A DNA stretch of 34,853 nucleotides, taken from a virus. A program made the position numbers and the translations under genes. The stretch spans positions 1-34,853 of the IMG/VR virus record IMGVR_UViG_3300025141_000366. One strand, written 5' to 3'. A model generated the notes under the pieces. The model saw only the letters and a program-made list of their open reading frames with translations. It did not search any database and was not told where the DNA came from. The number at the start of each line of letters is the position of its first letter. The first letter of the stretch is position 1. Of this stretch, positions 5,236 through 34,541 are shown piece by piece.

Positions 5236-5277
5236 TCCCCTTCTCTCTCTCTCAAGAGAGAGAGAGAGAGAAGGGGG
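5236..5277. repeat. GA/CT hairpin, copy 1
   Basis: CCCCTT followed by a CT run (5237-5253) pairs with a GA run ending AAGGGG (5260-5276), giving 17 bp around a 6-nt loop. The whole unit of about 40 bases is identical to the one at 6106-6147. It lies between the stop at 5290 and the start at 5196 of the minus-strand genes. No T-run follows, so it is a weak terminator candidate or an RNA stabiliser. Confidence 0.7.
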
Positions 5278-5289
5278 GTTCCATACGTG

Positions 5290-5433
5290 TCAACTCCGAA
5301 CCTCATGCGCTGTCACCGCTAATACAGTCACCTCATCAGCCACGTACAGGTCCAACAAGACCTCAGCGGACTCCTCAGGCGTGCCTGTCATCTCCTCCAT
5401 CTGAAACGTAACCACAACCCTATGTGTATTCAT
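5290..5433 (-). CDS. Micro-protein, 47 aa
   Basis: ATG at 5433 with GGAGG seven bases upstream. It begins MNTHRVVVTFQMEEMTGTPEE and has a beta-strand then acidic helix pattern, ending VLAVTAHEVRS. This looks like a small alpha/beta fold. It is the first gene after the tmRNA-like RNA and its ATG overlaps a possible upstream stop (ATGA at 5430-5433). No family recognised. Confidence 0.6.
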   Translation of the reverse strand: MNTHRVVVTFQMEEMTGTPEESAEVLLDLYVADEVTVLAVTAHEVRS

Positions 5434-5612
5434 GCTCTTACCTCCTGTACGCGCCTATTCATTGCCAATGCATACTCATGCAGAACGTGCCAGTTGATGC
5501 AAGCACCTGTACGGTAACTAAGCCGTACGCTACGTGGGACTGGCGACTCCCCGTGGCTCGTCTGTTGGTTGACAACGGGGCAAAGACGGCCCAACCCCCT
5601 GAACAAGCACAT
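5430..5612 (-). CDS. Doubtful small ORF, up to 60 aa
   Basis: The frame ends INWHVLHEYALAMNRRVQEVRA and its TGA overlaps the next ATG, the coupling used throughout this arm. That supports a real gene. Against it, no start has a good binding site, and extending upstream of the ATG at 5612 would translate through the RNA gene. The true start is unknown and could be much closer to the stop. If it is not coding, 5434-5682 holds only the hairpin at 5620-5655. Confidence 0.25.
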   Translation of the reverse strand: MCLFRGLGRLCPVVNQQTSHGESPVPRSVRLSYRTGACINWHVLHEYALAMNRRVQEVRA

Positions 5613-5619
5613 GCAGCGA

Positions 5620-5655
5620 GGAGGGTGCCACCTGCTTAGGACAGGCACACCCTCC
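5620..5655 (-). terminator. Hairpin 28 nt downstream of the tmRNA-like RNA
   Basis: GGAGGGTG plus CCTG (5655-5642) pairs with CAGGTGGCACCCTCC (5634-5620) with a small bulge and a 7-nt loop. It follows the RNA gene on the same strand with no U-run. It may mark the 3' processing region or slow transcription. Confidence 0.5.
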
Positions 5656-5682
5656 CCATTCGCCGCAACCGATTGTGCTGCG

Positions 5683-5764
5683 GGTGGAGGTGAGGGGAAT
5701 CGAACCCCTGTCCACAAGCGTCCGACATGCGGCTTTCACTTGCGTCGAAACCAGAACCACCCCC
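5683..5764 (-). ncRNA. tmRNA-like tRNA-like domain without a message domain
   Basis: Read on the minus strand the RNA starts GGGGGTGGTTCTGGTTTCG, very close to the universal tmRNA 5' end (E. coli GGGGCUGAUUCUGGAUUCG). It ends GGACAGGGGTTCGATTCCCC then CACCTCCACC, the tmRNA 3' end. The acceptor stem is seven pairs (GGGGGUG with CACCUCC) with a G3-U70 wobble and A73, the alanine identity elements. The T-arm AGGGG-TTCGATT-CCCCT is perfect. There is no D-stem, as in tmRNA. A 6-bp helix (CGCAAG with CTTGTG) closes only about 20 nt, where normal tmRNA carries several hundred with the tag ORF and pseudoknots. CCC rather than CCA follows A73, so the final A must be added. It is co-directional with its neighbours. 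Confidence 0.7.
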
Positions 5765-5854
5765 GTGGCACCTGTTGCGGGGGACAAACCCTACCGCTTC
5801 TTGGACAGGCAACGCTATGCGCAGGGACAGGCAACTCCTACACACACCCACACG

Positions 5855-6061
5855 CTACGACTCCTGAGCCATAGTCTCCAAATGCGTCTGCGCCCACTCC
5901 TGCACATCCTCCATCTCCATACACAGCGCCTGCAACGCCTTAGGCAACGGCGACTCATCGTCAGCCCACACAAGCGCATTCACCAACTTGTCAACACCCG
6001 CACCATCCATGAACACGGCGTACAAGTCCTCATTCGCATCCACACACGTTACGTCAATCAT
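5855..6061 (-). CDS. Small acidic protein, 68 aa
   Basis: ATG at 6061 with GGAGGTGC seven bases upstream. It begins MIDVTCVDANEDLYAVFMDG and continues as an acidic helix (ADDESPLPKALQALCMEMEDVQEWAQTH). A short beta-strand start followed by helices suggests a compact fold. No family recognised. It is the gene directly upstream of the tmRNA-like RNA, with about 90 bases between its stop and the RNA 5' end. Confidence 0.65.
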   Translation of the reverse strand: MIDVTCVDANEDLYAVFMDGAGVDKLVNALVWADDESPLPKALQALCMEMEDVQEWAQTHLETMAQES

Positions 6062-6105
6062 TTCAGCACCTCCTGTGCATCGTGGAAACCAGAAAAAGTT
6101 CGACC

Positions 6106-6147
6106 TCCCCTTCTCTCTCTCTCAAGAGAGAGAGAGAGAGAAGGGGG
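6106..6147. repeat. GA/CT hairpin, copy 2
   Basis: This unit is the same as the one at 5236-5277: CCCCTT and a CT run pairing with a GA run ending AAGGGG. It lies between the stop at 6157 and the ribosome binding site of the gene at 6061. Exact conservation of both arms and loop suggests recent copying or a shared role. Confidence 0.7.
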
Positions 6148-6156
6148 CTTCACACG

Positions 6157-6306
6157 CTAGTACTGCCAAACGTCAACACCCGCCCACGACGCTGCAAAGT
6201 ACATGAACCCACACACGAGCGCAGGATACATCCCACACATCGTCCACAGGAACCCACGCGGCGTATGAAACCACCGCACATACCTACATACCCAACACCC
6301 GCTCAT
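6157..6306 (-). CDS. Small hydrophobic protein, 49 aa
   Basis: The ATG at 6306 overlaps the upstream stop (ATGA) and has GGAGG seven bases before it. The protein begins MSGCWVCRYVRWFHTPRGFLW, with CxxC near the start, followed by an aromatic and hydrophobic stretch (about residues 19-41, with MYPALVCGFMYFAASWAG) likely to insert in a membrane. Basic residues precede the span, so the N-terminus is probably cytoplasmic. No family recognised. Confidence 0.6.
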   Translation of the reverse strand: MSGCWVCRYVRWFHTPRGFLWTMCGMYPALVCGFMYFAASWAGVDVWQY

Positions 6307-24023: not shown

Positions 24024-27000
24024 ATGCCTTACAACCCGATTGCCGACTACCGCCCCGCCAAACCCAGCGGGCCTCCCAGTCGAAAGAACCAGCCCGCTAC
24101 TCCCAGTGTACGCGATGCAAGCGTTGGTGCGTTGCGTCAGGTACGTCGCAACGCGGAGCCTCAGTGGTCGATTCGGGATATGCAGCGGGCGTTGGAAGCC
24201 GCAAACATCGGCACAGATAAAGAGCCGTATAATCCGATTACGCAGCATGTAGACGTTTCTGGTTACGATATTGGAGCGTCGAATTATATGTCGTCCCCGA
24301 CGACGGGTAGTTCTGGATACGGCGGATTCCTGAGTGGCCTTGGTGGTATTGTTATGTTGGGTTTGACTGCGGCAGGGAAGTTTTTGAGCGCGTCTTCTAC
24401 TGTTGCCCATGTTGCTTTAGATAGTTTCCAAAGTAACATTTCTGCTACTAGGCAGATAATAAACAATCTCAATTGGCGAAGTAAGTCGAACTGGTGGGAT
24501 AACAACGCAAAACCTATCAGTTATAGCGATAGCAGCGAACCCTTGTCTCAGTATTGGGATGACATGAATTTGCTGGGTGGGGTAAGGGTACCTACTCCGT
24601 TTGGTGAATTAGACATTGGGGCAATGATCGGGCAGGACACCGCCGAATTTTATACATTTGGTCGCCTTCTTCACGACGAGGACTGGTTACAGGACTATGG
24701 GTCACTTGTCCAGTTTACGTTACCTGTAAACAAGGTGGGTGGTTTGTTTGGCAAGGAGTGGGAGGATTGGCATTGGGATGTCACTCCGTCGTTCTTGGCG
24801 GCGGCGCCGCTTGATCTGGCGTTGGACCCGCTGGTATGGATGACTGGGGGACTTTCCAAACTTGCTACTCCAGTCCGCGCGCTTGTTAAGACGGGTGCAG
24901 CGCAGACGCTTGGCGCTAAGTTGACTCGTAAGGTTATTGAGGAGGCTGTTGAGAAAACGATAAGGAATCGTATTGGTGCCGCAGTCGGGATGTCTGCGTC
25001 AGACGCGGCTGCGGCTGCGATGTCAGGTACGGCTATAAAATCTCATATGGATGAGATAGTTACCAGAGTTATGGCGCAGGCCGAAGAGGCCGCGAAGATA
25101 GTGCCACAGTCTAGCGGATTGCGCGCAGGAAAGGCCGCTAAGTCCGCGAAGCACCGCGAAGCAGGTCTTGGGGAGATGGCTGACCGCGTGGATGAGGTTA
25201 TTGCCAAAGAACTTGAAGACCTTTTCCAAACGCTTGGCGGGTCGTATGGGGTTCAGGTTGCGACGGGTAGGGGCGGGTTGGGGGAGAACTTGGCAGACTT
25301 GTTTGAGGTGGGCATTGTCGGGGCCAGTAGCACGAAGGGCGTGTCGGCGGTCGGCACTGCTCAGGCTCGCAGGGTGGCGAAGATTTGGAAGAAACTTAAC
25401 TTGAACGCTGCGGGGCAAACTGCTGATGAGTTTGCAGCGGCGGCAGTGGGTACTGGTAAGAGGCTTATCGGAAAGGAAAGCCAAAAGTTTATTCCCCTCT
25501 TTGACGACGCAGCGGTAACGAGTGTAAGAAGTCGCCTTACGCAAGGTGGTAGAAACGCTCACCTTGACACCATTGACGACATGTCGTTGTCGTTGGGTTT
25601 CAGGGTTCCTTTCTCGGGCAGTATCGGTCGGGCTACTGCCCGACGGCTACCAGTACTAAAGAATGCGGAGTGGGCGCACAGCGGTCGACCTATCGGCATT
25701 AGCGTTCTTGGTGGTTCTAAGGTGGCACGAGATGCTGCCGTTTTGGGTGTTCCTCGCTCATTGCGTTACTTGTTCAGTGATGTAGCCGCTGGACTGGGCA
25801 CCCGTGTTACTCGTGGAAAAATGAGGGGCCGCTTTGGGTCGCAGGTTTTGGGTACCAGCAAGGTGGCGGCGAAGGCGCGGCTTGATGAATGGATCGCAAA
25901 GGGTGCATCTCCTGCCAAGGCAAAGAGGATACAAGTTCAGGCTTTGAAGGATATGGTAAATGATCCTTTGCTGGATGCGGGTTTGCGCCTTGGGGCCAAG
26001 AACACCATATTGGATATGCAGCGTGGCAACAGCATGATGCATCGGGCTAGGAACATATTTATCAGGAAGTCGGCGTCACGCGGGGAGGGGTTTCGTCAAA
26101 AGGCTCTTGACTATTTTGGTGGGCGTGCGACTCCTGCGCAGATAAAGACATATGGGGAGGCTATTCCAGATGCTGCGGAGCAACTTGGTGCGCGTCTTAA
26201 GGGTGGGGAAGTTTTTGTTCCTGAGGGTGCTGCTGAACGGATGATTCCGACTTCGAATGGAATTGATATTAGTGAGGAAACGGCGATGGAGGCGCTTAAC
26301 TGGTTTAAGGAGGTTCGTATTGAGGCACATGCGATGGCGGGGATGGACTTTATTCCCGAGCGTGAGTTTTATATGTTTCGCATGGTGGGAGATGATGCGC
26401 AAGAGTACATGCAGTTCAAGCAGAACTTTGACGGGCTAGACCATGCACAAAGAAGCAAATGGGACCCTTCGGATATTGAGAAGGCCAGAAGGTACGGAAG
26501 CCCTGATGAAGTAGCCGCACAGGGCGGCAAGGGCACTATGAGCGACAACTTCCTTGGGGAACAACTCTACAACCCCTCTCCGCCCGACGGAATTCCCGCC
26601 ATTCCAGAACAGATCAACGAAATTATGATCCGCCATTTTGGCGAAGGCTGGGATGAACTGCCCCAAATGTACAACCGTGACATCTTTGACATGATGAATC
26701 GGTATGCAGAAATCGTGTCTAGGCGTGTAGGCGAGGTACATACTGAGGTTTTGATGCGAGCAGATCGTGTCCTTACCGATAAGTGGATTACGCAATTGCA
26801 TATTCCAAGCGATGCCATACACAAGGCGGCGCTTGTAGTCAGGCAGCGACAAATTGCACTTGACCAGTCACGTATCAAGTTGCTTGACAAGATGCGGTCG
26901 CATCTGTCGTCCACTCCTGCTGAACGCAAGTTGGAATGGGCAGCCGTAGAAAACCAAGCAAAGGTTTACAACTATCTGCAAAACGAATTGGACAATGCGA

Positions 27001-30000
27001 GAAACGCTCAGGCAGCCAAGCAGCGCGTGGTTGAAGCCCAGCGGGTTAAGTTTGAAATAAGTGAAGGGCGGGTCAAGCAACTAGAAGCAGACGTAGCGAC
27101 TATACAAAAAGAGATCGATGACGCCCTGTCGATGTCAGCAGAAGCAAAGGGCGCTGCGGCGAAGAAAGAATTCGACCGCTTGACGGTGTTGGAGAAGGAG
27201 AGACAAGACCTGTTGGATGAGGTCAAGCGTTTGGAGTTGGGTGGCCCCGACGATGTGGCGGTCTTGAACTCTAGTACTGTTTACGGTGCGTTGTGGGAAG
27301 AGGCGCGTTCTGCGGTTGCAACAAAGGTTTGGTTGGAGAGAGCCTTGGTTGAAGCCTTTGGCGATGTGGATACGGCCAAGGCGTTTGCTGCGTGGTATGC
27401 GAAGGAGTGGGATGCGACGGCGAAGCGGTTGGGTCCGCAAGCGGTGACAGGTGAGTCGGGGTTGGAAGCCACGAACAAGGCTGTCGCTGACGCCATGCAG
27501 GACTCTATCTTTACTCATCAGCGCGCTCAGGGGTCACCGTTTGCGATGCAGGCACGGGATGGGCGTCTGTTTTTTGAGCATTTGTCGCACCAGTTTGACA
27601 ACAACCATCTTGGTGAGTGGGTGGCGATGGCTGATCCTGAGCGGTTTATGATGCCTGTGACGCCTACGGGTAGGTATGCGGGTGCGTCTCATGCGGTGTT
27701 TGAGGCGTTGGATTTCTTGGATACAGAGGTGACTCGTATAGTTCGTAGGTTGGAGGAGTTGACGGTAAAGTACACGACGGAGGTGCCAGAACTTTCTGCC
27801 AACTTGGCGGCGCGGAAGCCTCCGCGTGCAACGATGACGGAGAAGGGGCAGGCTGCTTGGGCGGAGGAAGAGATTGCGCGGTTGGAGGGCACTCATCCTT
27901 CTTTGTATACGGCTGAAATGAAGGCCGAGGTTGCAGAGTTGCGGGGGTATGTCAAGTATTTGGAGGCGCCAGAGACTCCTGCGGTTATTGATCGGTTTGC
28001 GATTCCTACGCCTGAGGCGTTGGAGGATGCGAAAAGGGTTATTGTTGAGGCGTTTGAAAGTTCTGATGCTGTTGCTGCTATATCGTCAAAGGAGTTTGAT
28101 GATGCTGCGCGAATGCATTTGGCGTTGGTAGGCGATAAGCCAGTTCTGCGAGTTAACGATGTTGGTGATGTGGATGCGTTGATTTCGGCTGCGAAGGGGT
28201 CGTTTGCGGCTCGTGCGCGGGCGAAGGGGGTAGAGATTGCCGATTCGCCGCTTGGTGATGTGCGGTTCAAGATTGGGGATTCGTTGACGGATGAAACGGG
28301 GGAGATTGGTTTGTCGGCGTATGTATTGTTGCAGCGATTCCGCGCTCAGGTAACGCGCGGGATACGTGATGGTGCGTTGCCGCGTACTGCTCCTGTCAAC
28401 ATTGAAAGTTTGGTTGCGGCTGTTGATGACCTTACGGATTTTGTGTATAGGTCAGAGGTTGCATTTAATGGCAAACGATATTTGATGACTGAGTATCACG
28501 ATTTTGGGGAGATGGCGGCAGAGACTGCCGCCGATGCCGTCTATCGTGAGTTGAATATTCCTGTTCGTAATTCGTGGGGTGACGTTAGTAGCGATGGCAG
28601 GATGTGGAGGGTTCAGGAAATAGACGAGTTGGAAAATATCGTGGCGATTGATCCCAATGTCGACTTGATGAACTCAAAGATTATTTACGGTGAAGACGCG
28701 AGTGCACAGATTGTCTCTATGGATAGCAAGGTTGGGGCAGGACAGACTGGTGTGAACTCTGCTTCTCGTTTTGAGCAGGGGTTTGCTGCCGATATTTTGT
28801 TGGGGCATCAGGATGTTATGGGTCTGGATCTGAGGCATCTTGGTTTGACTTCCGATGGCAGGATCACGAGACTTAGCGTTGAAAAAACATTTGGCAACTG
28901 GGCAGACCCTCCGATTCTTGGGCCGCGCATAGGGCAGCAACGAGTGGTGTCTTTGAACGTTCGACGCATGACCGATGCCGAACTGGGTGCATATTCCGAT
29001 GAGGTTGCGGAAAAACTTAGTACACGTTCCTATCTCCAAGACGCAATGGACGAAACTCTCGCACGGGGTGAGGACGAGTTGAGGGCAGGTTTGTTCAATC
29101 ATCCATTGTGGATGGAACGTCGGATGCATTTGGAACAGGACTTGATCTATGCTAATGATGAGATGGCGTATCGGGGGTTGAAGTGGGAAGGTGACCACGG
29201 GTGGGTTAGGCGCGATAAAACGTACGATCTTGAAACGTGGGCGGAGAGGGAGGTTGCCCGTCAGGGTGTTCCTCCGACTGATCGTATTACCGAGGTTGGT
29301 TATGGAGAGTTCGGTGACGATGCTACGTTCCGCGAATTCTTTGAGTATACAGAGAGAACTGGAGCGGCTGAGAAATCAGCGATTGATGAACCATTCTCAG
29401 CAGAAGCAACAGCATTGAGTAGGGCTGATCCTTATGATTGGGAAGCATTCAGTCGCGCCAGAGGCTATACCGAAGAAGAAATATCGGATTTCAGGCGTTA
29501 CCTTGAAACAGAAAAGAAAGTACGTGCCGCGCATCCTGATGATCCAGACTTCACTGCTGCTGTCGCACGCGATATAGAGCAAACGCCTTCCACTAGTCCA
29601 GTGGCTGCGTTTGAGGCGGGGCATCGGCGGGCGCAGCAAATTGAGGGACCGTTAACGGCTGACGATGTTTTGGATATTCAGGCTCTTGTGACGGGGCGTA
29701 GAGGAGCGTACGGTCAGACGCTGGCGGAGATGCAGAGCGAAGCGGATGCGTTGGCTGCCTTTTTGGGGAATCGTGAGTACATGTTCTTCGATTATACCGA
29801 TACTCTGCTGATGGAGGGCACGGACTTCCATCACTCCTTCAGTGAGTTACGTAAAACTTTCTACAATAAAAACGACCCCGCAAAGTCGTATAGACCGCAG
29901 CACGATCACGCAATGTCAGCAAAACTGCGAGATGAAGCGGAGGAGTTTCTTTCTCAGTTGGAGGAAAAGATCGCTTATGCGCAGAACACTGGAGGGTCTA

Positions 30001-33000
30001 CTGCTGATCGTGGGTTCAGGACGACAGAAGTCCAAATTCAGGGTGGAGCAGATGTGCCGTCGCTGGCACCGCCGCCTGCTGCGGAGGTGCCACGTTTGAT
30101 GGAGGGGTTGATGGCATCGGGGCTACACGCCGACGATCCGCAAGTATTCATACGAGAGTTTTTGAAGATTCATCCGTTTGCGGATGGGAATGGACGTACC
30201 GCTGCTATTCTGTTGAATCATCTCAGTCCTGCTGAGAGTGGGTACAAGTTGCTACCTGATTATTTCGGTACGGGGTTTGTTGGTGAGCCACCTACGCCGA
30301 TTGGACCGTGGGGCCAAAGGGTAACAGACGCATCGTTACAGGGCGGATACGTAGAGCGTGTAGGGACCGCAAGGCAGCATGGAAGCCTTGCAAACCCAGT
30401 AGAAATTACAATCAGACCACTACCCCAAAACCTTGCAGAAGATTTTTTGGGTATGGGAAACCTTCCACCTCATCAGCGCGTCGAAATCCTCTGGGACTAT
30501 TTGGGGGCGCCTCCATCGGCAATGGGAGAGCGAACGGCAGGCGCTCGTGCGGGGCTCAAACGGATGGCGGAAATAACGGATGAAATGTCGGCAGAAGGCA
30601 TTTTGGTTACCGCTTCCGTTGACGAAGATGCTACTGCCTTACGCAACCTGTATGCAAAAGCAGGGTTTAAGGAAATAACACACTATGACGATTCAGGGAT
30701 GATCTTTATTGCAAAGTTTCCTGAACCTGTCCAAATTCCACACGTACTAGACGACTTCGCCAAACTGGAAGGCAAAGGCATCGAAGGTGTCGGCAAGGGT
30801 GAGCAGTTCAGGAGGGGTGTGGATAACATTCTGGCTGTACGCGCTAAATATGGTGGTTGGCGGGAGATGTTGGCACATGCGCTACCTGTGGGAGCGCAGT
30901 CTGATGAACAGATTCGGCGTTTGGCACTGTTTTTGGAGACTCGCACGGAGCAGTTGGCTGCGATTGCTGATCGTCCGTATTTGGTTGGTAAGGAGTTGCT
31001 TGGTCAGCAGCAGATGCAGGCTGCTGGCGCTAAGTCTGAGTGGAATTTGATTCGGAGTGAATCGCGGGGTCATGGTATTAGTGTGGAGCCGACGTTGGAC
31101 CCGATGCAGGTATCTGGTCGTGTGGGGGCAGCGGCTAGGGGCACCGATCAGGCGCATTTCTTGGAGGAAGGCACTCAGGTGTTGCCGTGGATCGACGGAA
31201 GCGGCATCAATATGACTCCTCAGACGATGGCGTACGGCGGCGAAAACGCGTTCGAGCGCAGTGACTTTATTCGTATGGTTATTGATTTGAATGCCGACGC
31301 ATCCAATATCAAGTTGTACGGTTTCCAACCTGCTGACCCTAACCTCGTTCGTGCCCGACAGTTGCTTGTTAAGTTAGGTGACGACAATATGACGGCTGAA
31401 ACTCTCGTGGAAACGTTAGATCAGTTAACAGACTTGATGCCGAGGCCGTACGGAAAAGTGAGTCCTTATAAGCAGGTTAGTCGGGAGGGGCGTTTGGCGT
31501 CTGGTATCGGGGAGCAGACGCTGGACATGTTGGATCGCGGGGGTGACGATTTGTTAGATGAGTTGCTGCGATTCGCTAATCCTAAACAACGTAAGACGAT
31601 AACACTTGTACGCGAAGGGGGGGAAGTAGTCGAAGAGATACTTGACTCTGCGGCAACCACCCGAACCATAAATGCGTTTAACAGAGTGCGGGCGATTATG
31701 AGCAACCCTGCGTTGGCGGAGAAGTTTCCTGCCTATAGTCTCTCGCAGCAGCGTGGGCTGATGCGAGAGGTACTGGAATTTGTTTCTTGGCAAGAAAACC
31801 GTTACGCTCGCAGACTCGTGGACGACGAAGGGTTGGGGTCACTTTCTGACGCGATTGATCGCTACTTTGTGCACAGAAACAAGGACTTGAACCCGAATGG
31901 CTACGCCGAAGCAGTCGCTTCGGCAGAGGCAGGTGCGGCTGCGCACGCAAATGAACTGATTGGAACTGTTCACTTACGGTATATGCAGAACCAAGAATTG
32001 CGTGCAGGAATGAAGTGGGACGAATGGCTTGAACTAAACGGGTCCATTACCAACACCGCCGCTGTACGCAAGGCGGTCGCACGAGCGGGGTCTTTCGATC
32101 CCGTGATGATGCGACCGTTCCTTGCCCGATACCCTGAATCGTCACTCATCGGGCGCCTGTGGCAACAGTACCATTTGTCCTTGGCGGGCGATGGGTATTC
32201 GGCAACGGCATGGATGAACGCGACTGATCGTTGGACGATCAGCCCGTTCATCAAAGACACAGAGAACATTGTTGGTCGCCGTAGCGCACGACCCGCGACG
32301 GTCGCAGACGACCCGCTTGACGAGGCTGGGATGTGGCTTGAAGAGCAGGGCATGGCGGGGGCGTGGGCAGAAGATAGCGTCCTGTCCGAAGTGCAGCAGG
32401 CACAAAACGAATTTTCCGTCAACGTGACGTTGACAAACCCGTTGGGTGTGCGCCCAAGAATATTCATGGACGACATGGAGCGCACGATGGCACCTGACGA
32501 CTTTGCAAACACGCTTGCCAATCCCATAGAACAGAACCTTGTTGACCCAACAGCATTTGAAAAGACTTACCGTCAGGCAGCCATTGACGCTCTGGTTGAA
32601 GACAACGGCATAGGAGAACTTTCACGTAGGCGTGTCGTCGCTGACGATGCTCTGGAGAAGGCAGTTGAGAAGCAGAAGATTGTTACCGACAACCTGTGGC
32701 TAATGGAGCGCGATTGGAACGCGCACTTGGAAACCGTGAATCGCCTGTCCCGAGAGGTGGACAGCGCGAAGGAGTTGTTGCAGTTGCATGAGTGGGCCAT
32801 CGAACGACGTAACCTGTTTGCTAAGGCGATGGCAAAATTGCAGACGCTGGACCCTGAGTTCAAGTTCAAACAGGGAGGTGTGAACGCTTTGTCGGAAGCG
32901 TATCAGGATTTGGAATCGACTATACGCCTGTTGGGTATGGCCGATTTGGAAGAATCTAAGTTCATTCTACAGACGCTGGCGGAAGGTGGAAGTTTCCAAG

Positions 33001-34541
33001 GTGCCCTTGACGAACTATTGGATGTAAGCAGCAATGTAGCCAAACTGAGAAATATGCCCGAAGCAGTACCCATGATGGATCGTGCATGGCGTGCAGGATG
33101 GAGGCCGATTGGAGTCAAGTCGCAGGGTCGTGAAGCCCTAGTGGAGTCCATCGTTGCTGCCGACATGTACCACGCACGCGGGGGCATGGGCAAGTTCTTG
33201 GGTCGTGGCGGATACTATGACGCAGTTCATAACGTATGGAAGGGATATGCCATTCTGTCGCCCGGTTTTTGGGCGAGAAACTATATGGGTGGTATGTTCT
33301 TGAATTATTTGCATGGGGTTGACATCAGTAGTTACACTCGGTTCATGCGAGCATATAATGCTTTGAAGATTGAGCAGGCTGTTGCGCAGGGTAAGATCAG
33401 GCGTGCTGAGGGACGTAAATTGTTGGACAAGGCCACGGGCGGCAAGGTTAGTGCCGACGACATTTCGATTGTACGTCAGATGGAAGAAACGGGTGCGTTT
33501 GGTCAGGGTCAAGCGGGGGTGGAGTTCACGCCATCGACGGGAGGTCGTGGCGTGATAACGGTTGCTGGGAAACGGATAGATTTAAACAAGTTTAACCCGT
33601 TCTCTAGTCGCAACGTGGCTCTCAAGGCTGGGCATAGCATGAACATCAAGGTGGAAACGTTCCTGCGTGGATCGATTGGCTTCGACACTATGAAGAAGGG
33701 CGGCACGCTTGGGCAGGCGATGGACGACATTTGGAAGTATCACTTTGATTACGATGACCTGTCTAGGTTTGAACGCGGTGTCGTTAAGAAGATAGTTCCA
33801 TTCTATACGTGGACACGTAAGTCGCTGCCTTTGATAGCGGAACAATTTATGATGAAGCCGTACAAGTTCAATCGTTACAGGATGGCGGTAGATGCGATCA
33901 GCGAGGACGACTGGTCTGACTTCGGAGTAGTACCAGATTGGATGGTTCGGCAAGGGGCCGTACCGTTGGGTCACAAGTTCGCAGGGGAACACATGTGGAT
34001 GATACCCGACCTTCCCATGCGCGGCTTCTACGAATTAGTCAACACCCCGACAAGAGCAGACATGTCACCCATAGAGCGTATCGGAGCGGTGGGAGAAGCA
34101 CTGTCGTCTATGGTTACACCGTTGATTAAGGCACCTGTTGAACTGTTGACAAACAGAAATATTTGGAAGGGGTATAGTTTCAACGGAAGTTTAGAACCCG
34201 TACCAGAAGCGTTTTCATGGGTGCCCGGTCTGATGCCTGCACTAGATGCGATGGGGGCGGCTCAGAAGACGCCAAAGGGCAATTGGGTGATGAAGGACAA
34301 TTGGTTGCATTCGATGACGCAGTTGGTGCCGACGCTTTCGCAAGCGCGGCGCCTGTTCCCTGACGAGGAACGGTATCAGCATCGTTTGTTGTCGTCATGG
34401 ATGTCGTTCATGTTTGGTCTTGGTTTGCGGACCAACACCTCGTGGGAGCAGCAGCAGGAACTGCGGGCACGCTATTATGAACAGATGGATAAGGATAGAG
34501 AGATGCGTGACATCTACAAGGCTGACATGGGTATACGTTAG
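24024..34541 (+). CDS. Giant multidomain virion protein with kinase-like, Fic and GNAT-like domains, 3505 aa
   Basis: A single frame of 10.5 kb. Residues about 95-120 are hydrophobic (FLSGLGGIVMLGLTAAGKFL) and might insert in a membrane. Residues about 930-1075 form a coiled coil. Around 1453-1636 lies a kinase-like domain (KRYLMTEYHD, ETAADAVYRELNIPV, AADILLGHQDVMGLD) with poor catalytic residues. Around 1990-2075 is a Fic domain with HPFADGNGRTAA at 2050-2061. Around 2124-2238 is a GNAT-like segment (VEITIRP, ATALRNLYAKAGFKEI). The last 450 residues carry PFYTWTRK (about 3259) and a helical end, resembling ends of other giant phage polyvalent proteins. The position after the internal proteins suggests a virion or ejected protein; host targets are unknown. 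Confidence 0.65.
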   Translation: MPYNPIADYRPAKPSGPPSRKNQPATPSVRDASVGALRQVRRNAEPQWSIRDMQRALEAANIGTDKEPYNPITQHVDVSGYDIGASNYMSSPTTGSSGYGGFLSGLGGIVMLGLTAAGKFLSASSTVAHVALDSFQSNISATRQIINNLNWRSKSNWWDNNAKPISYSDSSEPLSQYWDDMNLLGGVRVPTPFGELDIGAMIGQDTAEFYTFGRLLHDEDWLQDYGSLVQFTLPVNKVGGLFGKEWEDWHWDVTPSFLAAAPLDLALDPLVWMTGGLSKLATPVRALVKTGAAQTLGAKLTRKVIEEAVEKTIRNRIGAAVGMSASDAAAAAMSGTAIKSHMDEIVTRVMAQAEEAAKIVPQSSGLRAGKAAKSAKHREAGLGEMADRVDEVIAKELEDLFQTLGGSYGVQVATGRGGLGENLADLFEVGIVGASSTKGVSAVGTAQARRVAKIWKKLNLNAAGQTADEFAAAAVGTGKRLIGKESQKFIPLFDDAAVTSVRSRLTQGGRNAHLDTIDDMSLSLGFRVPFSGSIGRATARRLPVLKNAEWAHSGRPIGISVLGGSKVARDAAVLGVPRSLRYLFSDVAAGLGTRVTRGKMRGRFGSQVLGTSKVAAKARLDEWIAKGASPAKAKRIQVQALKDMVNDPLLDAGLRLGAKNTILDMQRGNSMMHRARNIFIRKSASRGEGFRQKALDYFGGRATPAQIKTYGEAIPDAAEQLGARLKGGEVFVPEGAAERMIPTSNGIDISEETAMEALNWFKEVRIEAHAMAGMDFIPEREFYMFRMVGDDAQEYMQFKQNFDGLDHAQRSKWDPSDIEKARRYGSPDEVAAQGGKGTMSDNFLGEQLYNPSPPDGIPAIPEQINEIMIRHFGEGWDELPQMYNRDIFDMMNRYAEIVSRRVGEVHTEVLMRADRVLTDKWITQLHIPSDAIHKAALVVRQRQIALDQSRIKLLDKMRSHLSSTPAERKLEWAAVENQAKVYNYLQNELDNARNAQAAKQRVVEAQRVKFEISEGRVKQLEADVATIQKEIDDALSMSAEAKGAAAKKEFDRLTVLEKERQDLLDEVKRLELGGPDDVAVLNSSTVYGALWEEARSAVATKVWLERALVEAFGDVDTAKAFAAWYAKEWDATAKRLGPQAVTGESGLEATNKAVADAMQDSIFTHQRAQGSPFAMQARDGRLFFEHLSHQFDNNHLGEWVAMADPERFMMPVTPTGRYAGASHAVFEALDFLDTEVTRIVRRLEELTVKYTTEVPELSANLAARKPPRATMTEKGQAAWAEEEIARLEGTHPSLYTAEMKAEVAELRGYVKYLEAPETPAVIDRFAIPTPEALEDAKRVIVEAFESSDAVAAISSKEFDDAARMHLALVGDKPVLRVNDVGDVDALISAAKGSFAARARAKGVEIADSPLGDVRFKIGDSLTDETGEIGLSAYVLLQRFRAQVTRGIRDGALPRTAPVNIESLVAAVDDLTDFVYRSEVAFNGKRYLMTEYHDFGEMAAETAADAVYRELNIPVRNSWGDVSSDGRMWRVQEIDELENIVAIDPNVDLMNSKIIYGEDASAQIVSMDSKVGAGQTGVNSASRFEQGFAADILLGHQDVMGLDLRHLGLTSDGRITRLSVEKTFGNWADPPILGPRIGQQRVVSLNVRRMTDAELGAYSDEVAEKLSTRSYLQDAMDETLARGEDELRAGLFNHPLWMERRMHLEQDLIYANDEMAYRGLKWEGDHGWVRRDKTYDLETWAEREVARQGVPPTDRITEVGYGEFGDDATFREFFEYTERTGAAEKSAIDEPFSAEATALSRADPYDWEAFSRARGYTEEEISDFRRYLETEKKVRAAHPDDPDFTAAVARDIEQTPSTSPVAAFEAGHRRAQQIEGPLTADDVLDIQALVTGRRGAYGQTLAEMQSEADALAAFLGNREYMFFDYTDTLLMEGTDFHHSFSELRKTFYNKNDPAKSYRPQHDHAMSAKLRDEAEEFLSQLEEKIAYAQNTGGSTADRGFRTTEVQIQGGADVPSLAPPPAAEVPRLMEGLMASGLHADDPQVFIREFLKIHPFADGNGRTAAILLNHLSPAESGYKLLPDYFGTGFVGEPPTPIGPWGQRVTDASLQGGYVERVGTARQHGSLANPVEITIRPLPQNLAEDFLGMGNLPPHQRVEILWDYLGAPPSAMGERTAGARAGLKRMAEITDEMSAEGILVTASVDEDATALRNLYAKAGFKEITHYDDSGMIFIAKFPEPVQIPHVLDDFAKLEGKGIEGVGKGEQFRRGVDNILAVRAKYGGWREMLAHALPVGAQSDEQIRRLALFLETRTEQLAAIADRPYLVGKELLGQQQMQAAGAKSEWNLIRSESRGHGISVEPTLDPMQVSGRVGAAARGTDQAHFLEEGTQVLPWIDGSGINMTPQTMAYGGENAFERSDFIRMVIDLNADASNIKLYGFQPADPNLVRARQLLVKLGDDNMTAETLVETLDQLTDLMPRPYGKVSPYKQVSREGRLASGIGEQTLDMLDRGGDDLLDELLRFANPKQRKTITLVREGGEVVEEILDSAATTRTINAFNRVRAIMSNPALAEKFPAYSLSQQRGLMREVLEFVSWQENRYARRLVDDEGLGSLSDAIDRYFVHRNKDLNPNGYAEAVASAEAGAAAHANELIGTVHLRYMQNQELRAGMKWDEWLELNGSITNTAAVRKAVARAGSFDPVMMRPFLARYPESSLIGRLWQQYHLSLAGDGYSATAWMNATDRWTISPFIKDTENIVGRRSARPATVADDPLDEAGMWLEEQGMAGAWAEDSVLSEVQQAQNEFSVNVTLTNPLGVRPRIFMDDMERTMAPDDFANTLANPIEQNLVDPTAFEKTYRQAAIDALVEDNGIGELSRRRVVADDALEKAVEKQKIVTDNLWLMERDWNAHLETVNRLSREVDSAKELLQLHEWAIERRNLFAKAMAKLQTLDPEFKFKQGGVNALSEAYQDLESTIRLLGMADLEESKFILQTLAEGGSFQGALDELLDVSSNVAKLRNMPEAVPMMDRAWRAGWRPIGVKSQGREALVESIVAADMYHARGGMGKFLGRGGYYDAVHNVWKGYAILSPGFWARNYMGGMFLNYLHGVDISSYTRFMRAYNALKIEQAVAQGKIRRAEGRKLLDKATGGKVSADDISIVRQMEETGAFGQGQAGVEFTPSTGGRGVITVAGKRIDLNKFNPFSSRNVALKAGHSMNIKVETFLRGSIGFDTMKKGGTLGQAMDDIWKYHFDYDDLSRFERGVVKKIVPFYTWTRKSLPLIAEQFMMKPYKFNRYRMAVDAISEDDWSDFGVVPDWMVRQGAVPLGHKFAGEHMWMIPDLPMRGFYELVNTPTRADMSPIERIGAVGEALSSMVTPLIKAPVELLTNRNIWKGYSFNGSLEPVPEAFSWVPGLMPALDAMGAAQKTPKGNWVMKDNWLHSMTQLVPTLSQARRLFPDEERYQHRLLSSWMSFMFGLGLRTNTSWEQQQELRARYYEQMDKDREMRDIYKADMGIR

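Follow-up and report, generated by a model that had tools for sequence, protein, structure and literature searches.

A virus-encoded tmRNA without message belongs to a widespread phage family with a conserved alanine-type tRNA-like domain

The closest described counterpart of the RNA reported here is the 'TLD only' tmRNA of mycobacteriophage DS6A, a tmRNA limited to its tRNA-like domain (TLD) (Mao et al. 2009, as cited in excerpts of PMC4131195 and PMC11915505). RNA of the DS6A type is reported to inhibit tmRNA (PMC11915505, PMC4131195), and an excerpt of one of these sources states that a DS6A-like molecule does so strongly in chargeable and non-chargeable form alike, possibly through titration of SmpB (PMC4131195). 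The tmRNA database of 2025 lists 97,179 unique sequences, 79 phage sequences and 9 'standard, no CDS' forms, and in the excerpted part of its text the phage example of the message-less form is DS6A (PMC11915505). According to the same text, message-less mitochondrial tmRNA has been kept together with a nuclear-encoded SmpB and is thought to help with incomplete mRNAs. For tmRNA in general, passages of a review give a G-U at the third acceptor pair as the determinant for AlaRS and describe a deformed D-arm in extensive contact with SmpB (PMC3985003); EF-Tu recognizes the molecule once it is charged (PMC3985003, PMC8012679). Moreover, the structure of a truncated tmRNA devoid of the pseudoknot ring has been determined in complex with SmpB, EF-Tu and the ribosome (excerpts of PMC8363625 and PMC8012679). 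A large phage family of message-less RNAs was not found in print in the open-licence literature. Here we document an RNA gene of this kind together with its structure, its broad conservation among phages and its constant alanine identity.

The window, i.e., the whole stretch of DNA analyzed, is a virus record of 34,853 bases. It carries a message-less tmRNA on the minus strand in which both tmRNA ends are joined by a 30-nt arm (Table 1). A first-pass annotation made from the letters alone had placed and described this short RNA correctly, and the molecule reads from 5764 to 5683. In a cmscan analysis of the window, RF00023 matched at 5764-5682 on the minus strand with 70.8 bits (E 8.7e-26), the family cut-off being 47 bits for RF00023 as well as for RF04321. 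The covariance match had been named beforehand as a test and turned out strong. The alignment covers model positions 1-374 with 306 model positions deleted between, which leaves no room for the pseudoknots. The tag reading frame with its resume and stop codons is absent as well, the 30 nt between the ends being all arm. What remains agrees with the traits of RF00023, namely a 7-bp acceptor with G3-U70, A73, a stemless D-region of the TTCGAC type and the P2 helix, bearing out the proposal of a tmRNA cut down to its alanine-type tRNA-like domain. Beyond the P2 helix, the remaining 16 nt of the arm form an asymmetric A-rich internal loop (AAAG/A) and a hairpin cap, CCG-CATGT-CGG. The gene stops short of the final A of CCA, position 5682 being a C. 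Being virus-encoded, with little beyond the tRNA-like domain and without a CDS, the RNA fits the TLD-only phage kind.

Table 1 Features of the message-less tmRNA locus in the window and of related loci.
Feature	Position	Strand	Basis
TLD-only tmRNA, whole RNA to C75	window 5683..5764	-	cmscan and family of relatives
Acceptor stem 5' side GGGGGTG, G3 paired with U70	window 5758..5764	-	sequence, cmscan alignment
Stemless D-region with GGTTTCGAC	window 5744..5757	-	sequence, cmscan alignment
30-nt arm	window 5714..5743	-	sequence; covariation in relatives
P2 helix, 7 bp	window 5743-5737 with 5720-5714	-	sequence; covariation in relatives
GGAC linker and T-arm AGGGG-TTCGATT-CCCCT	window 5693..5713	-	sequence, cmscan alignment
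Acceptor 3' side CACCTCC, A73 (5685), CC (5684-5683)	window 5683..5692	-	sequence; A73 in relatives
GC-rich hairpin directly 3' of the RNA	window 5620..5655	-	sequence; 5610-5696 94% identical in L052/L181
Pistol ribozyme, above Rfam cut-off	L181 8725-8664	-	
Pistol ribozyme, above Rfam cut-off	L180 6704-6765	+	
Pistol ribozyme, above Rfam cut-off, >2 kb upstream of the RNA	L073 1621-1716	+	
Pistol ribozyme, above Rfam cut-off, >2 kb upstream of the RNA	L085 6012-5916	-	
~120-nt structured element closed by GGAGGGTG/CACCCTCC	L180 7052-7172; L181 8376-8255	+; -	

Two other classifications were rejected. An ordinary tRNA does not fit a sequence with neither a D-stem nor an anticodon arm on which ARAGORN stays silent; this program called no tRNA or tmRNA anywhere in the window. 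The first-pass annotation had also considered one piece of a split tmRNA. This idea had to be given up, together with that of a permuted or two-piece tmRNA, because the 5' end precedes the 3' end in one gene, which is the standard order, and because RF04321 reached 27.7 bits, against its cut-off of 47, and aligned on the T-arm and 3' end only. The minimum-energy fold of the single sequence does not contain the tRNA-like domain: the acceptor forms, arm and T-arm fold otherwise, and the z score is only -1.09. Support for the structure thus comes from the covariance model and from covariation among relatives. When the region 5300-6300 was scanned, no promoter site was returned, and the one terminator-like site (5769-5756, minus strand), which overlaps the 5' end of the RNA, is within chance. 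The GC-rich hairpin that follows the RNA is possibly a 3' boundary or processing element.

Relatives were collected with a pattern consisting of TTCGAC followed, after 15-45 nt, by GGAC and the T-arm, so that the acceptor lay outside the pattern. It matched in at least 119 viral contigs. Among the matches listed, 118 viral ones were readable, not counting L114, which is truncated by the end of its contig. The acceptor is complete (7/7 pairs) in 116 of them, always with G1-C72, G2-C71 and G3-U70; the two without a complete acceptor are L013 and L082. A73 occurs in all 118. A near-identical pattern (gap 18-45) applied to the prokaryote genome collection yielded 39 matches, of which only four have a full acceptor (L138, L142, L146 and L166). 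These stem from an Acidimicrobiales MAG, a Prochlorococcus contig, a cyanobacterial MAG and Parafrankia EUN1f, and the Prochlorococcus contig agrees with viral contig L073 both in its length and in the position of the match. ARAGORN-called tmRNAs of ordinary length overlap 20 of the 39 bacterial matches. Since the pattern left the acceptor free, full acceptors in 116 of 118 viral versus 4 of 39 bacterial matches are more than chance. Widening the gap to 46-76 nt gave 14 viral matches in all, four with a seven-pair acceptor (L169, L173, L174 and L175), while L014 and L179 proved to be short RNAs caught via an upstream TTCGAC. This low number sets the short form apart as a separate class.

Further members were recovered with variants of the pattern. 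Full acceptors were found in 12 of 19 matches with the D-variant TTTGAC, in 6 of 7 with GTGTGAC and in all four new contigs carrying the T-stem of the window RNA; overall, 22 of these 30 further matches have all seven pairs, and pair 3 is G-U in 22 of 22. The T-stem of the window RNA itself occurs in nine viral contigs, five of which are among the at least 119 listed, and this overlap suggests, very roughly, 200 contigs in IMG/VR. RF00023 exceeded 47 bits at the expected place in 45 of the 48 loci scanned, with L014, L086 and L166 below. The analyses described in the following use the 86 RNAs that are left when duplicates are discarded and a 7/7 acceptor is required. ARAGORN called none of these 86 at its own ends. 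Its 'tmRNA' in L052/L181, the 5' half of which lies in the upstream reading frame and which lacks TTCGAC, was treated as spurious, as was a 626-nt tmRNA call in L002.

The arm is under selection for pairing. Its outer four pairs form in 85, 82, 77 and 80 of the 86 RNAs, with all six standard pair types at each, and the unbroken helix counted from the outer end has a mean length of 5.4 pairs versus 0.85 with shuffled arms; in 12 of the 86, this helix is no longer than two pairs. With the RNAs grouped at 80% identity into 38 clusters, the outer seven arm pairs make up 266 cells, and 223 of these are paired (shuffled mean 116, maximum 144); GGG/TCC-A is kept in every cluster. The sequence of the arm varies among relatives while the pairing stays. 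Covariation was assessed in alignment A2, i.e., 25 of the 86 RNAs that belong to one length class, with the structure drawn from these same sequences. Alignment A1 (window and 64 others) misplaces the first pairs, and model R1 derived from it was left unused. In the 25 RNAs, 93.2% of the cells are paired compared with 42-50% when slid, and the covariation score, for a structure drawn from the scored sequences, is 0.599 versus 0.056-0.132 slid and 0.165 shuffled. Two-sided changes affect 15 of 23 pairs, a weak measure since 43 of 500 shuffles reach that number.

Within the same 25 RNAs of one length class, acceptor pairs 1, 2, 3 and 7 are constant, and pairs 4, 5 and 6 have changed on both sides in 9, 5 and 7 sequences. 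Note that the acceptors had been pre-selected for seven pairs, a filter that G-C or A-U at pair 3 would equally pass. Within the 30-nt-arm class, all 17 aligned RNAs share the arm tip AAAGCC...GGA, which is not constant in the other classes. Since at least 116 viral contigs share the form, with paired changes, decay is a poor explanation for the window copy, as had been argued from the letters. No message domain is inserted in the relatives read; they carry the same short form, and on this ground an assembly deletion was rejected.

Two close relatives share about 4 kb of adjacent sequence with the window, L052/L181 with 80.5% and L098/L180 with 90.5% identity. In L052/L181, the RNA is 96.4% identical over 83 nt, the alignment ending at 5683 and 5765, whereas the neighboring coding blocks are 80.5% and 74.6% identical; other noncoding pieces, 5610-5696 and 5421-5483, reach 94% and 90%. 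The RNA forms no such island in L098/L180, where the whole of 5684-5847 is 98.8% identical. By one of its changes, L052 has G-C instead of G-U at the outermost arm pair. Both close relatives harbor a Pistol self-cleaving ribozyme upstream of the RNA on the same strand, at a distance of about 0.1-0.2 kb. Pistol was detected in 4 of the 48 loci scanned; the window itself gave no match to it up to E 1. The structured element of about 120 nt listed in Table 1 is located directly downstream of the RNA in L180 and after a further tRNA-like stretch in L181 (z -2.4 and -1.9 versus shuffles); it has no Rfam match and is missing from the window. Genes for tRNAs are present in 22 of the 86 loci and lie only a few bases from the RNA in L010, L017 and L023, which makes joint processing with tRNAs plausible. 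SmpB (Pfam PF01668) was not found in 18 phage records, some of them possibly fragments, with 10 of 14 control genomes positive. In 17 of the 18 records, the short RNA and no other tmRNA exceeds the cut-off.

Several other features of the window were recorded. A long CT/GA-repeat hairpin, CCTTCTCTCTC...GAGAGAGAAGG, is present in two copies flanking the RNA region (about 5237-5276 and 6106-6147) and has kin in the relatives. An inverted repeat at 7519-7573 has 17-base perfect arms (GGGGTATCGCTTACAAC) and a 3-base loop and resembles, among Rfam entries, only a microRNA model, far below cut-off. An open reading frame of 3505 aa (24024-34541, plus strand) contains a Fic/DOC domain near residues 1999-2067. 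The portal protein of the phage is SU10/P22-like, with 41% identity to its best match, 'Caudoviricetes sp.' from Manatee Spring.

A distant blastn search of 50,697 phage records led to look-alikes in Streptomyces phages, and eight records with related copies were read: BRock, LuckySocke, Alone3, GiJojo, pSt2308, Tomas, Naboo and Karimac. None of the eight has an RNA annotated at the place of the short RNA; in GiJojo a hypothetical CDS is annotated there, the Naboo record is without any annotation, and in the remaining six the place is empty. All eight copies have seven of seven acceptor pairs including G3-U70. With RF00023, BRock (64.5 bits), pSt2308 (61.0), GiJojo (57.4) and LuckySocke (57.1) are above 47 bits, Karimac (42.1) and Alone3 (36.8) are below, and the short RNAs of Tomas and Naboo, which were not reported at E 0.001, were recognized by alignment and acceptor only. 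The T-stem has five of five pairs in five of the eight, four in Tomas and Naboo and three in Alone3. The D-regions of these last three copies are changed, and the copies may be worn. A fixed-register reading places the arms wrongly in Karimac, Tomas, Naboo and Alone3; for these four, only its columns for acceptor, D-region and T-stem were used, and the arm of the Karimac type was read separately. Tomas (97147-97421, 275 nt), Karimac (97752-98032, 281 nt) and Naboo also encode a full-length tmRNA. Because the short copy of the Karimac type keeps its 7-pair arm (six contigs of the type), Karimac is the sound case of a short and a full tmRNA side by side, and in view of this arm-paired copy the short form is not simply the result of message loss in place.

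Other reduced tmRNA-like elements came to light in the course of the work. The four seven-pair matches with wide gaps (L169, L173, L174 and L175) make up a candidate second class of reduced RNAs, about 120 nt long, with the seven-pair acceptor and T-arm of tmRNA and inserts of 70-75 nt. In Synechococcus phage S-CAM1 (L182, about 1500-1545), a 3' tmRNA piece lies a few bases ahead of a 5' piece with GGGGGTG; the record has no RNA annotation at this site, and the arrangement looks like a permuted tmRNA. Microbacterium phages Armstrong (L184 938-1027) and Celaena (L188 539-627) have an unannotated element of about 90 nt directly upstream of tRNA-Asn, with a 7-bp G3-U70 acceptor, A73 and a T-arm and with neither TTCGAC nor an RF00023 match.

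What could such an RNA do? Its occurrence in many other viruses suggests a functional molecule. We put the probability at roughly one half (about 0.52) that the window RNA is a competitor which carries alanine but no message and which, with the help of host SmpB, blocks trans-translation, and with this the decoy on host ribosome rescue proposed in the first-pass annotation stands as the leading mechanism. The phage gene would give rise to an RNA of 80-83 nt, a tmRNA without message. Judging from the conserved elements, host RNase P and CCA-adding enzyme would finish its ends, host AlaRS would attach alanine, and the RNA would be bound by the host's SmpB and EF-Tu in the manner of tmRNA. The charged complex could then enter codon-less stalled ribosomes, like the truncated tmRNA in the published crystal structure, and by occupying SmpB and stalled ribosomes the RNA would suppress host tagging during infection. 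Lacking a resume codon, a tag and the pseudoknot ring, it could not complete trans-translation, and as no SmpB was found in the 18 phage records, that of the host would have to serve. Expression, charging, SmpB binding and an antagonistic outcome are what we infer for the short RNA. The conserved cap AAAGCC...GGA has no known role in the competitor model and counts against it, as do the worn look of some copies (Alone3, Tomas and Naboo) and a single-sequence fold that lacks the TLD. A bolder version, to which we give only tentative credence and which we regard as probably too far-reaching, would see in the widespread family, very roughly 200 contigs by extrapolation, a dedicated alanine-charged effector that overrides host trans-translation at the level of the ribosome, with the capped arm AAAGCC...GGA having a partner of its own and with a full tmRNA beside it in some phages.

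The main rival of the charged competitor is rescue without tagging. Here, the charged RNA together with host SmpB would take over the nascent chain, drop off as peptidyl-RNA and be hydrolyzed, so that ribosomes are freed and phage proteins escape tagging for proteolysis. The sequence predictions of the two readings are identical, and an alanine identity that is constant among full-acceptor copies is what one expects of an RNA that joins peptide transfer. However, we know of no step by which a ribosome would be released without a resume codon and a stop. The mitochondrial RNAs mentioned above, retained with SmpB (excerpt of PMC11915505), and the entry of truncated tmRNA into the ribosome (excerpts of PMC8012679 and PMC8363625) are consistent with tagless rescue, whereas passages of a review hold that a missing tag and missing pseudoknots speak against trans-translation of the bacterial type (PMC3985003), and for TLD-only RNAs we found no activity reported other than inhibition (excerpts of PMC11915505 and PMC4131195). 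On balance, we consider tagless rescue unlikely, though worth keeping in mind.

Even less probable is an RNA that merely soaks up SmpB, or AlaRS, with charging irrelevant. The published inhibition by a TLD-like RNA, chargeable or not, agrees with such a sponge (excerpt of PMC4131195). However, acceptor pairs 1-3 and A73 are constant while pairs 4-6 are freely replaced, and G3-U70 would not be expected to be needed by a sponge. As reported inhibition is independent of charging, the constant G3-U70 is not explained by inhibition alone. The constant alanine identity suggests instead that charging is used, so that a mere SmpB sponge becomes less likely and competition by a charged RNA at the ribosome, which is more than sponging, is favored. 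We offer this as an argument, not as proof: full tmRNAs are likewise constant at G3-U70 according to the passages of PMC3985003, and the invariance may be an inherited constraint.

Two further functions appear remote. As a counter-defense bait, the RNA would occupy RNA-targeting defense proteins of the host that have SmpB-like domains, or enzymes that cleave tRNA or tmRNA. SmpB-like domains do occur in restriction systems predicted to target RNA, but tmRNA binding by those systems is itself merely predicted in the excerpt of PMC11090510, and we rate a bait as quite improbable. More improbable still is that the RNA supplies alanine to an enzyme, of phage or host, with a use for charged tRNA outside translation. 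The charging elements are retained and the message is gone, as a donor would have it, but so is the D-region motif of tmRNA retained, for which a donor should have no need, and among the window proteins scanned, many of them without a family match, no such enzyme was recognizable. Finally, a remnant, integration scar or assembly deletion is disfavored. The ssrA fragments reported in prophages (excerpt of PMC9004378), the divergence of four of the eight isolate copies (Alone3, Karimac, Tomas and Naboo) and the 12 of 86 RNAs with poorly paired arms would fit it; against it stand the presence of both ends, the same form with paired changes in at least 116 viral contigs and an identity to L052/L181 above that of the adjoining coding blocks.

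The message-less tmRNA, listed as a rarity, is common in the viral contigs analyzed here. Given that ARAGORN is blind to the form (0 of 86 at their own ends), phage tmRNA surveys based on this program, e.g., that in PMC9004378, would probably miss it. If the proposed mechanism is true, interference of phages with ribosome rescue would be far commoner than known. The copies in cultured Streptomyces phages make the idea directly testable, and a decision between charged competitor and sponge turns on a one-base change.

How does this family compare with the reduced and complete tmRNAs already described? Full-length phage tmRNAs, such as those of Tomas, Karimac and cluster C mycobacteriophages, match RF00023 at both ends too, and several from mycobacteriophages are annotated with their tag peptide; where those of Tomas and Karimac extend over 275 and 281 nt, the window RNA has a 30-nt arm instead. 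The crystallized truncated tmRNA (PDB 4V8Q; excerpts of PMC8012679 and PMC8363625) is also a tRNA-like domain without the pseudoknot ring, but it is a laboratory construct, whereas the window RNA is natural. The mitochondrial tmRNA of jakobids likewise has the tRNA-like domain without tag frame and pseudoknots (passages of PMC3985003). In contrast to the phage RNA, however, the jakobid form (Jacob et al. 2004, as cited in excerpts of PMC11915505 and PMC3985003) and the CDS-less plastid tmRNA are encoded by organelle genes. The likeness to DS6A is drawn from its description; there, one phage is named, while the form is found here in at least 116 viral contigs and eight Streptomyces phage records, and the conserved capped arm is a feature of the family described here. 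The kind, a TLD-only phage tmRNA, is thus already known from DS6A, and the window RNA is a new member of it. New are the size of the family, the covarying capped arm, the constant alanine identity, the co-occurrence with full tmRNA in some genomes and the invisibility to ARAGORN.
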